Shown here: in pieces, positions 4,162-7,711 of the stretch
How positions within the stretch are numbered: the stretch's first letter is position 1
How the letters are laid out: each line of letters starts with the position of its first letter
Assembly (NCBI GenBank): GCA_009841075.1
Contig: VXMP01000090.1
Coordinates: 1-64,000 of the forward strand
From: Acidimicrobiia bacterium
GTDB taxonomy: Bacteria; Actinomycetota; Acidimicrobiia; Spongiisociales; Spongiisociaceae
Length of the DNA stretch: 64,000 nt
Direction of reading: 5' to 3'
Program-made: the position numbers and the translations under genes
The notes under the pieces: model-generated
Told to the model about the DNA's origin: nothing
Database searches by the model: none
What the model saw: the letters and a program-made list of their open reading frames with translations, nothing else

Positions 4162-4938
4162 TTATCCCCTGACCAGGGCCAAGATCGGTTCGTGGAGGGT
4201 GCCGTTGGTGGCCAGGCCGGTACCGGATCGGTAGTCGGGACGGCCGGAAAAATCGGTGAACACCCCGCCCGCTTCGGGGATGATCACCGCCATCGGAGCC
4301 ACATCCCAGGGGTTGACGATCGGGTCGAGCATGGCTTCAACCCGCCCCGAGGCCACCAGGCTATAGCCGTAGGCGTCTCCCCATCCTCGCAGGATCATCG
4401 GGCTCCTCAGCATCCGTTCGGCCTGGTCGGAGTCCATCAACTCAAAGCTGCTGGTACATAAAACGGCGTCATCGAGGTTGGTTTTGGGGCTCACCATCAC
4501 CCGTTTTCCGTTCAGGTAACAGCCCCGATCTCGGGCGGCGGCCACGGTTTCGCCCAGGGCGGGCAGGCTGACCACCCCCAGCGCCGCTCCGTGCTCATCC
4601 TCCAGAGCCAAAAGGGTGGCGAAGAGCGGTACGTTACGGATGAAAGACTGGGTGCCGTCGATGGGGTCGATGATCCAGTTGCGGCCGGATCGGCTCGGGG
4701 CGTCGGGGAACTCCTCTCCGATGATTCCGTCGGCGGGGTAGCGGCGGGTCAGCTCGGTGCGGAGAAAGCTTTCTGCGGCTCGGTCGGCCTCGGTAACCGG
4801 GCTCCCGTCTTTTTTGACCATTACCCGGGTCGATTTCTCGTACCAGTCCAGGGTGAGGCGTCCGGCCCGGTCGGCCAAACCAACCGCCTCCTCGAAGAGC
4901 GAATCCGAGATAGGAGGGGAGGGGTGGGCGGAGCTCAT
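4162..4938 (-). CDS. Inositol monophosphatase family protein (possible HisN-type phosphatase)
   Basis: GEEFPD...WIIDPIDGTQSFIRNVP and WDVAPMAVIIPEAGG motifs. Confidence 0.85.
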   Translation of the reverse strand: MSSAHPSPPISDSLFEEAVGLADRAGRLTLDWYEKSTRVMVKKDGSPVTEADRAAESFLRTELTRRYPADGIIGEEFPDAPSRSGRNWIIDPIDGTQSFIRNVPLFATLLALEDEHGAALGVVSLPALGETVAAARDRGCYLNGKRVMVSPKTNLDDAVLCTSSFELMDSDQAERMLRSPMILRGWGDAYGYSLVASGRVEAMLDPIVNPWDVAPMAVIIPEAGGVFTDFSGRPDYRSGTGLATNGTLHEPILALVRG

Positions 4939-6539
4939 TGTGGGTCGGATCGGTGCTCGGTTCGGAGCAGGCCGAGGACGATGCCGTCGGTGAGCGCTTC
5001 CCAGGAGGCTTCGATGACGTTCTCGTGCACCCCGATGGAGCCCCAGGTGGCCACTCCGTCGCTCATCTCGATGAAAACCCGCACCATCGCCGCGGTGGAG
5101 GCGGTCGAGTCGAGCACCCGGACGTTGTAGTTGGTGAGGCGAAGGAGGTTGAGCCGGGGGAAATGGGGGCGGAGCGCCTCCCGCATGGCGTGGTCGAGGG
5201 CGTTGACCGGCCCGTTACCCTCGCCGGTGCTGATCACCCTTTCCCCGCCGACCAGGATCTTGACGGTGGCCTCGGCCATGACCAGTCCATCGGAACGATG
5301 CTCGGTGGAGACCCGAAAAGACTCCAACTCGAAGTAGTGGTGGGACCAGCCGCCGGCCCGCCTCAGCATCAGCTCGAAGGAGCCGTCGGCGGCCTCGAAG
5401 TGGTATCCGAGGTTCTCCATGTGCTTGATGTCGTTTAGCACCTCGGCGGCCTGCGACCCCGACAGTTCCAGCCCCAGATCACCGGCCTTGGCGAGGATGG
5501 TCGACCGACCGGAAAGCTCGGACACCACGGTACGGGTCCGGTTTCCCACCCGGGTCGGGTCCTGATGTTCGTAGGCGTCGGGTCGTCTGGCCATGGCGGA
5601 GGTGTGCAATCCGGCCTTATGGGTGAAGGCGGAGGCACCCACGAAGGGGCGATGAGGGTCGAGGCTGATGTTGACGATCTCGGCGATGTGGTGGGCGATG
5701 GGCGACAGCCTCTCCAGGTTATCCGGTTCCAGCACCGGGATGCCCATCTTCAGGACCAGGGCGGGGAGGACGGTGGACAGGTCGGCGTTGCCGGTGCGTT
5801 CGCCGTATCCGTTGATGCATCCCTGCACCTGCCGGACCCCCATTTCTACTGCCATCAGGGAGGACGCCACCGCGCAGCCGGCGTCGTTGTGGAAATGGAC
5901 GCCCAGGTCCGCCTCGGGAAGCGCGGCCCGGACCTGTTCGATGGTGTGGGCGATTTCGGATTGGAGCCGGCCGCCGTTGGTGTCGCACAGGACCAGCCGT
6001 TCCGCCCCTTCCTCGAAGGCGGCCCGAAGCACGGCCAGGGCGAAATCGGGGTTGGAGAGGTAGCCGTCGAAGAAGTGCTCCGCGTCGAAGAAAACCCGCC
6101 GATCCCGTTCTTTTAGGTAGGCCACCGACTCCGCCACCATCGCAATGCCGTCGTCCAGGTCGGTGAGGAGCGCCTCCCGCACGTGATAGTCCCAGGCTTT
6201 CCCCACTATGCATACCGCCTCGGTTTCGGCTTCGAGCAGGTTGAGGAGCTGAGCATCTCCCTGGACCGAACGACGGGGACGACGGGTGGAACCGAAGGCG
6301 GTCAGGGTGGCGGTGCCGAGGTTGAGCTCGGATCGGGCCCGTTTGAAAAACTCGCTGTCCTTGGGGTTGGCGCCGGGCCATCCTCCTTCGATGTAGCCCA
6401 CGCCCAGGTCGTCGAGCAGGGAGGCGATCAGGAGCTTGTCGGAAACAGTCAGGGAGATGCCCTCCTGCTGGGCACCGTCTCGCAGGGTGGTGTCGTAGAT
6501 TTCGAGTTGAGAATGCGCCAAGTGGCTGCTTTCTCCCAC
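4935..6539 (-). CDS. cimA: Citramalate synthase
   Basis: IYDTTLRDGAQQEGISLTVSDKL...HFHNDAGCAVA...NGYGERTGNADL plus LeuA-type C-terminal regulatory domain; SD-like GGAGGT upstream of GTG. Confidence 0.9.
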   Translation of the reverse strand: MGESSHLAHSQLEIYDTTLRDGAQQEGISLTVSDKLLIASLLDDLGVGYIEGGWPGANPKDSEFFKRARSELNLGTATLTAFGSTRRPRRSVQGDAQLLNLLEAETEAVCIVGKAWDYHVREALLTDLDDGIAMVAESVAYLKERDRRVFFDAEHFFDGYLSNPDFALAVLRAAFEEGAERLVLCDTNGGRLQSEIAHTIEQVRAALPEADLGVHFHNDAGCAVASSLMAVEMGVRQVQGCINGYGERTGNADLSTVLPALVLKMGIPVLEPDNLERLSPIAHHIAEIVNISLDPHRPFVGASAFTHKAGLHTSAMARRPDAYEHQDPTRVGNRTRTVVSELSGRSTILAKAGDLGLELSGSQAAEVLNDIKHMENLGYHFEAADGSFELMLRRAGGWSHHYFELESFRVSTEHRSDGLVMAEATVKILVGGERVISTGEGNGPVNALDHAMREALRPHFPRLNLLRLTNYNVRVLDSTASTAAMVRVFIEMSDGVATWGSIGVHENVIEASWEALTDGIVLGLLRTEHRSDPQ

Positions 6540-6574
6540 TTTGACCTCCCAGGCCGCCGGCTCTTACAAAAAAT

Positions 6575-6599
6575 AAACCCTGCGGCGGGCGCAGGGTTT
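6575..6599 (-). terminator. Intrinsic terminator (candidate attenuator) in the cimA leader
   Basis: Minus strand AAACCCTGCG-CCCGC-CGCAGGGTTT followed by ATTTTTTG; 10-bp stem, 5-nt loop, U tract, about 35 nt upstream of the cimA start. Confidence 0.75.
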
Positions 6600-6600
6600 G

Positions 6601-6624
6601 GGGCACAGGCGTGAACCTATGCCC
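6601..6624 (-). other. Upstream hairpin of the cimA leader
   Basis: Minus strand GGGCATAGG-TTCACG-CCTGTGCCC, directly after the leader-peptide stop. Confidence 0.6.
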
Positions 6625-6656
6625 TATTCGATAATGATCCCGATTGAGATGTTCAT
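6624..6656 (-). CDS. Ile-rich leader peptide MNISIGIIIE
   Basis: ATG AAC ATC TCA ATC GGG ATC ATT ATC GAA TAG; 5 Ile in 10 residues, directly upstream of hairpin, terminator and an Ile-pathway gene. Confidence 0.7.
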   Translation of the reverse strand: MNISIGIIIE

Positions 6657-6664
6657 CAGGTCAG

Positions 6665-6693
6665 AGTGTGGTCGGTTCGGCCCGCTCTGTCAA
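6665..6693 (-). promoter_or_regulatory. Candidate promoter for the cimA leader transcript
   Basis: Minus strand TTGACA, 17 bp, CACACT; predicted TSS within about 2 nt of the leader-peptide ATG. The -10 match is weak. Confidence 0.45.
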
Positions 6694-6730: not shown

Positions 6731-7711
6731 GTGAGCACCAAACGGGTTTTTTCCGGCATCCAACCCAGCGGGGATATTCACATCGGTAACTACATGGGTG
6801 CCCTTCGTAACTGGGTGGCCATGCAGGACGATTACGCCACCATCTACTGTGTGGTCGACCTGCATGCCCTCACCCTTCCGCAGGACCCCGCCCGGCTGCT
6901 GCAGGCCCGGCTACGTACCGCCAAGATCCTGTTGGCCGCCGGAATCGACCCGCACCACTCGATGCTTTACTTCCAGAGTCAGGTGCCCCAGCACTCCGAG
7001 CTGTCTTGGATTATGGGGACGCTGGCTTCCATGGGTCATCTGGGCCGGATGACCCAATACAAGGAGAAGGAGGACAAGGGGGGCCAGAACCTGGGCCTGT
7101 TTTCCTATCCGGTGCTGATGGCCGCCGACATTCTGATCCATCGGGTTCATGCCGTGCCGGTGGGTAACGACCAGACCCAGCATCTCGAATTCACCCGTGA
7201 CCTGGTGGGCCGGTTCAACGCCCGATACGGGGATTTCTTCCCGCTGCCGGAGCAGATCAGCCCGCCGGTGGGGGCCCGGGTGATGTCGTTGCAGGATCCC
7301 TCCTCAAAGATGTCGAAGTCCGACCCTGACCCCGGGTCACGGATCATCGTCACCGACGACGCCGACACCATTGTGTCCAAGCTGCGCCGGGCGGTTACCG
7401 ACTCCGGTAGGGAGGTGGCCTATGACCTGGAGGAAAAGCCCGGCATCAGCAACCTGTTGGACATTTTGGCGGCTTTCACCGGTAGAGGGGTTGCGCAGCT
7501 GGCCGAGGAATACGCCCAGGTCGGATATGGACGCTTCAAGGATGTGGTGGCCGAAGCGGTGATATTCGGGTTGCAACCCTTGCGACAGGCCTATCTGAAC
7601 CTGGAGGATTCGCAGGTTAAGCAGATCATGGACGAGGGTGCCCGCCAGGCCCGCACCAGGGCGGAGGAAACCATGACCGCGCTACGAAGCCTGATCGGAC
7701 TCTCAGACTGA
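6731..7711 (+). CDS. trpS: Tryptophanyl-tRNA synthetase
   Basis: FSGIQPSGDIHIGNYMGALRNW and KMSKS motif (SSKMSKSDPD). Confidence 0.95.
   Translation: MSTKRVFSGIQPSGDIHIGNYMGALRNWVAMQDDYATIYCVVDLHALTLPQDPARLLQARLRTAKILLAAGIDPHHSMLYFQSQVPQHSELSWIMGTLASMGHLGRMTQYKEKEDKGGQNLGLFSYPVLMAADILIHRVHAVPVGNDQTQHLEFTRDLVGRFNARYGDFFPLPEQISPPVGARVMSLQDPSSKMSKSDPDPGSRIIVTDDADTIVSKLRRAVTDSGREVAYDLEEKPGISNLLDILAAFTGRGVAQLAEEYAQVGYGRFKDVVAEAVIFGLQPLRQAYLNLEDSQVKQIMDEGARQARTRAEETMTALRSLIGLSD

Follow-up and report, generated by a model that had tools for sequence, protein, structure and literature searches.

In E. coli pyrBI attenuation, the proximity of a ribosome blocks the terminator directly (see the discussion in PMC4824070). 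Among the Actinobacteria, ilvB leaders followed by terminators have been reported in which the other parts of an attenuator are absent, and their regulation was called unclear (Seliverstov 2005, PMC1262725). In Mycobacterium ilvB1, a swap of LVVI to AAAA in the leader gave low, uninducible expression, which supports codon dependence within the phylum; the authors nonetheless draw an antiterminator (PMC13236596). Leaderless leader peptides are known for ilvL, leuL and trpL of Streptomyces lividans (PMC8079986), and are ascribed to Corynebacterium ilvB (Morbach 2000, as cited in PMC10272879) and to the mycobacterial poly-Cys ORFs (Canestrari 2020, as cited in PMC13236596). For cimA, we found no description of a leader peptide in the open-licence literature searched.

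Here we analyzed the region upstream of cimA in the window, that is, the whole 64,000-nt stretch of DNA from an Acidimicrobiia bacterium, and compared it with related loci in the class and the phylum.

Results

The leader region of cimA in the window

The product of cimA in the window scored 647.5 bits against its NCBIfam model, for which the cut-off is 450. Upstream of the gene, the promoter, leader ORF, hairpins and terminator that the preliminary description had listed were all recovered in place on the minus strand (Table 1). The −35 and −10 elements are 17 nt apart, and 8 nt separate the −10 element from the ATG (6656-6654); from the position of this promoter, we predicted a transcription start at about 6658-6656. 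The leader ORF reads ATG AAC ATC TCA ATC GGG ATC ATT ATC GAA TAG, with Ile at 5 of its 10 codons, and its TAG stop (6626-6624) provides, with its last base, the first base of hairpin 1. Hairpin 1 is separated from the terminator stem by 1 nt. In the following, helix 1:2 denotes that of hairpin 1 and helix 3:4 that of the terminator.

Table 1. Predicted features of the cimA leader region in the window
Feature	Position	Strand	Basis or remark
cimA, (R)-citramalate synthase, 534 aa, GTG start at 6539	4935..6539	-	TIGR00977
−35 element TTGACA	6688..6693	-	Sequence; TTGAC and equal spacing kept in relatives
−10 element CACACT	6665..6670	-	Sequence; CATACT in most relatives
Leader ORF, MNISIGIIIE-stop	6624..6656	-	Sequence; apparently leaderless; orthologous Ile-run leaders in relatives
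Control codons ATC ATT ATC	6630..6638	-	Single codon (GAA) between run and stop
Hairpin 1, 10 bp	6601..6624 (arms 6624-6615 and 6610-6601)	-	Covariation in relatives
Terminator stem, 10 bp	6575..6599 (arms 6599-6590 and 6584-6575)	-	Covariation
U-tract ATTTTTTG of intrinsic terminator	6567..6574	-	Sequence
Shine-Dalgarno GGGAGG of cimA	6545..6550	-	Sequence

The gene at 4162-4938 on the minus strand overlaps the cimA stop (ATGA, 4938-4935). It resembles the histidinol-phosphatase gene hisN, scoring 243.5 bits against TIGR02067, which is under the cut-off of 275. The arrangement suggests a cimA-hisN operon that may be governed by one attenuator. On the other side, trpS (6731-7711, plus strand; TIGR00233, 330.9 bits) is divergent from the cimA leader, and a trpS-like ORF likewise adjoins the element at two further loci (L094 and L107).

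The promoter is similarly placed in relatives. A TTGA[CGT]..NANNNT pair precedes the start codon in 52 of 58 cimA leaders. In 51 of those 52 the −10 element lies 5-11 nt (most often 9) from the start codon, and an SD-like motif was present in only 2 of the 58. These counts support a start codon that lies too near the promoter for a Shine-Dalgarno sequence, and the cimA leader transcript would be expected to start 0-5 nt before the ATG. The same promoter rule performed fairly for leuB leaders (38/61) and fitted 1 of 11 ilvB leaders. The leaderless peptide had also been put forward as a distinctive variant; that does not stand, as leaderless attenuator peptides have already been described in Streptomyces (PMC8079986) and Corynebacterium (PMC10272879).

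Conservation of the leader across cimA loci and the class

We collected 80 relatives by protein search with cimA, mostly labelled Acidimicrobiia, giving 81 loci together with the window. Since they were picked by protein alone, the set carries no bias toward leader-bearing loci. Within 320 nt upstream of the gene, 20 of the 81 loci have an ORF of 5-30 codons with III within its last six codons; in 100 dinucleotide shuffles of the 81 loci, the mean number of such leader ORFs was 0.08 and the maximum was 1. An Ile-run leader upstream of cimA is not explained by chance. Similar leaders in relatives include MTTNPTWTIIIIE, MSTATIIIITD and MRPYDLGIIIG, and the cimA leader of a low-GC Actinomarina reads MKKIIIII.

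A first covariance model, R1, was built on the unedited MAFFT alignment; its consensus structure was poor, and R2 and R3 superseded it. R2 spans the final leader codons, Ile codons included. It matched 51 of the 81 cimA loci and found the element in 251 of the 395 genomes of the class, and 142 distinct leaders were gathered. Many of the loci that it did not match have an operon-internal cimA, with the element well upstream, before leuB or, once, before ilvE; some of the 51 matching loci likewise carry it ahead of an operon of the leuB-ilvE-cimA type. In the genome of the window itself, a second predicted attenuator of this kind lies before ilvB (L085, 1501-1573 on contig C36), with the leader MKGIRLVLILM, and leuA follows about 3.5 kb beyond it on the same contig.

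Because R2 held Ile codons, we built R3 from the stop codon onward, without sense codons. With a loose cut-off of E 0.5, R3 matched 34 of 35 genomes of the order. We examined 20 further matches, all with E no higher than 7e-5. In 18 of them ilvB or leuA is the gene downstream and the leader ends in a branched-chain run (e.g., ...ILVLM, ...LVLVLM and ...LLLLM); another precedes a cimA for which the parser read no leader, and one is unrelated. Many matches with E above 1e-4 were unrelated terminators and were left out. Outside the class, R3 found an ilvB leader ending ...NLVLIT and, in a genome of 7 Mb, the cimA leader VTSSARIIGS. The predicted branched-chain attenuator family occurs throughout the class and in parts of the phylum Actinomycetota. 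Neither the window nor six related loci matched an Rfam covariance model at the gathering score, riboswitch and T-box models included.

Several loci deserve mention in their own right. Five leuA loci (L293, L280, L235, L184 and L192) have Leu-run leaders (ALLLL, GLLLR, LLLLM) and share the stop-codon hairpin and the terminator. In four loci from other classes (L274, L275, L283 and L287), the ilvB leaders end in ...LVLIP/T, hairpin 1 is longer and contains an additional stem, and one has to go about 450-530 nt downstream to reach the start of the ilvB ORF, with a long untranslated stretch between. Six records titled Bifidobacterium breve, Armatimonadetes or Acidobacteria (L083, L021, L025, L031, L034 and L058) carry the element and a cimA close to those of Acidimicrobiia, and these labels look doubtful.

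Control codons and the downstream gene

We compared the last six leader residues between groups. Downstream genes were named by motifs near the N-terminus of the protein that the next ORF encodes, eight of these genes by eye, and an NCBIfam test covered only the cimA of the window and the ilvB and leuA of its genome. In cimA leaders, these residues are 55% Ile, 1% Leu and 1% Val; leuB leaders have 39% Ile and 21% Val, ilvB leaders have 35% Leu, 24% Val and 21% Ile, and the two leuA leaders have 58% Leu. The codon-blind R3 gave the same gene-matched runs as R2.

Two defining parts of an attenuator are present, namely a short leader ORF whose control codons match what the gene downstream produces and an intrinsic terminator between this ORF and that gene. 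Judging from the sequence, the element in the window is very probably an Ile attenuator of cimA. The preliminary description had proposed an Ile-sensing cimA attenuator that works through an antiterminator; the matching codons in relatives uphold its first part, and the antiterminator did not hold up, as described below.

Structure and geometry of the element

Both hairpins covary. In the alignment, 98.8% of cells were paired and 14 of 19 pairs had changed on both sides, a covariation equalled by 0 of 500 shuffles. Mutual information recovered helices 1:2 and 3:4, and none besides. Aligning the regions upstream of cimA, as had been proposed earlier, yielded the anticipated short Ile-rich ORF and terminator covariation, and no antiterminator covariation.

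The spacing is nearly fixed. In 95 of 133 leaders, the first base of hairpin 1 is nt 3 of the stop codon, and in all of them it falls at nt 1-5; the spacer from hairpin 1 to the terminator is 0-5 nt in every leader but one (7 nt). In 116 of 130 leaders, exactly one non-control codon stands between the last control codon and the stop, and the distance from the last control codon to hairpin 1 is 5 nt in 84 of the 130. From the stop codon to the terminator stem there are 20-35 nt (medians 26-28; 24 in the window). The free RNA before the terminator amounts to 11-26 nt with the ribosome at the stop and to 0-7 nt with hairpin 1 folded.

The 5' arm of the terminator is unusually conserved in sequence, reading ACCGTCCAC before leuB and ACCCTCYGC before cimA. 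It frequently holds a U-G pair at a fixed place, and its conservation goes beyond what base pairing alone explains.

Search for an antiterminator

The plan of leader peptide and terminator is that of a classical attenuator, in which a ribosome stalled on the Ile codons would mask region 1 and so let 2:3, or the 1:3 pairing of the preliminary description, form as the antiterminator. The latter, GGGCATAGGTT with AACCCTGCGCCC, is strong only in the genus and family of the window, where region 1 and region 3 are complementary at −12.8 kcal/mol (window) to −17.2 kcal/mol (L004), in favor of a classical switch; across the cimA family, it falls to the non-cognate level. As equilibrium estimates with kinetics left out, the cognate pairings of cimA leaders gave −5.70 kcal/mol for 1:3 against −5.85 kcal/mol with the region of another leader, and −3.66 for 2:3 against −3.91, with no gain in either case. 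The 2:3 covariation score was 0.132, compared with 0.161 in shuffles.

When a ribosome was set at the control codons, the energy of sequestering region 3 averaged −0.5 to −0.8 kcal/mol (cimA and leuB). For the positive controls ilvL, thrL and leuL of E. coli, it reached −8 to −14 kcal/mol at the control codons and was near 0 with the ribosome at the stop, and such clear controls indicate that the test is able to see an antiterminator. Once at least 6 nt past the stop were covered by the ribosome, region 3 paired with the upstream RNA less than its own letter shuffles did, by 1.4-1.8 kcal/mol for cimA and ilvB together and by 1.4-1.7 kcal/mol for cimA. The leuB group gave a mean of −3.6 kcal/mol for 2:3 with region 1 masked, 44% of its leaders being at or below −4, and these values were no better than shuffled ones; a weak classical switch may exist in this group.

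The order of events also speaks against a classical switch. Helix 1:2 of the window (−16.9 kcal/mol) is more stable than its 1:3 and is transcribed before 1:3 could form. A ribosome stalled on the Ile codons is located upstream of region 1, which stays free to pair with region 2. In keeping with the 5-nt gap found in 84/130 leaders, the ribosome does not mask the 5' arm of hairpin 1 as it would in a classical attenuator, and we detected no antiterminator mutually exclusive with the terminator. The energies with swapped partners, the folding with a masked ribosome, mutual information and the counts of pairs led us to reject both 1:3 and 2:3 as family-wide antiterminators. Taken together, we regard the classical mechanism as rather unlikely here.

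Discussion

The element is best explained, in our judgment quite probably, as an Ile-responsive, ribosome-mediated attenuator of cimA and one of a branched-chain family in the Actinomycetota. With charged Ile-tRNA, the ribosome would get to the stop codon and transcription would end at the terminator; when Ile-tRNA is scarce, the ribosome would stall on the Ile run and the polymerase would read on into cimA.

How would the position of the ribosome be read? The only structure that changes with this position is hairpin 1, and we therefore took its state as the signal. We tentatively suggest that the readout could be crowding by the stop-codon hairpin. When the last Ile codon occupies the A site, hairpin 1 would be intact at the mRNA entry of the ribosome, leaving 0-7 nt free (1 nt in the window), and the last pairs of the terminator stem would be unable to close within the polymerase. 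A ribosome on the stop codon would melt hairpin 1 and free about 11-26 nt, and the terminator would close. Ribosomes near a terminator are known to repress termination, for which the last 2-3 bp must close (Li et al., PMC4824070). Three points speak against this idea. An intact hairpin adjoining the terminator may fail to block it. If hairpin 1 alone were sufficient, untranslated transcripts would read through, which would be unusual among attenuators. Finally, hairpin 1 could re-form after ribosome release before the terminator is made, so that the timing must be assumed.

Alternatively, hairpin 1 might be a polymerase pause signal only, giving the ribosome time to catch up, the switch itself being a transient fold that equilibrium models miss. 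Hairpin-stabilized pauses occur in the trp and his leaders, and the stable hairpin just upstream together with the conserved sequence of region 3 would fit such a pause. A pause alone, however, leaves the block of termination under starvation unexplained, and a conserved alternative pairing was not found; we consider this reading unlikely. Less credible still is a fast switch at the boundary, as proposed for Corynebacterium ilvBNC, in which hairpin 1 and the terminator trade shared bases. The hairpins do abut, with 0-5 nt between them in nearly all leaders, and in 5 of 11 ilvB leaders they could have 1 nt in common, but base sharing, the mark of the Corynebacterium ilvB-II/fast attenuator, is possible in only 2% of the leaders before cimA and 3% of those before leuB, and the shared-boundary switch was rejected. 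Hungry-codon frameshifting at the Ile run, which would let the ribosome bypass the stop and continue across the terminator, is very improbable, for although the other two frames frequently stay open as far as the terminator extends, this openness is modestly above the shuffled expectation and inconsistent between genes, and frameshifting or readthrough past the stop was discarded for want of a consistent excess of open frames.

Returning to the Ile-responsive attenuator, the element very probably acts through the ribosome, yet it shows no sign of the antiterminator by which a classical attenuator is recognized. Perhaps, and we advance this with reserve, much of the Actinomycetota uses one device without an antiterminator for genes of four kinds, controlled by Ile, Ile/Val, Leu/Val/Ile or Leu. 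The analysis defines a widely conserved RNA element for branched-chain control that includes cimA among its targets, and it sharpens the old puzzle of actinobacterial leaders without the other attenuator parts (Seliverstov 2005). If the antiterminator is truly absent, termination would be controlled otherwise than by competing pairing, and the fixed geometry suggests where such control might be sought.

Like ilvL, leuL and thrL of E. coli, the cimA family combines control codons matched to the product with an intrinsic terminator before a biosynthetic gene. Unlike them, its leaders have no detectable antiterminator and an apparently leaderless start, and their control codons end 5 nt before hairpin 1, whereas those of E. 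coli lie in the masked region whose occupation frees the antiterminator. With the actinobacterial ilvB leaders (PMC1262725, PMC10272879, PMC11857589), the family shares branched-chain codons and a terminator; its stem begins on the stop codon, whereas theirs spans the ORF. In contrast to the Corynebacterium fast attenuator, the two hairpins here have almost no bases to share. The readout we propose resembles that of E. coli pyrBI in being steric, without competing pairing, but it would use a stop-codon hairpin as a folding spacer and tRNA charging as the signal. As in the leaderless leaders described in Actinobacteria, the cimA leader would start at or near the transcription start and has its control run near the stop; what sets it apart from them is cimA as the target, which did not appear in the papers searched, and a two-hairpin architecture common to cimA, leuB, ilvB and leuA.
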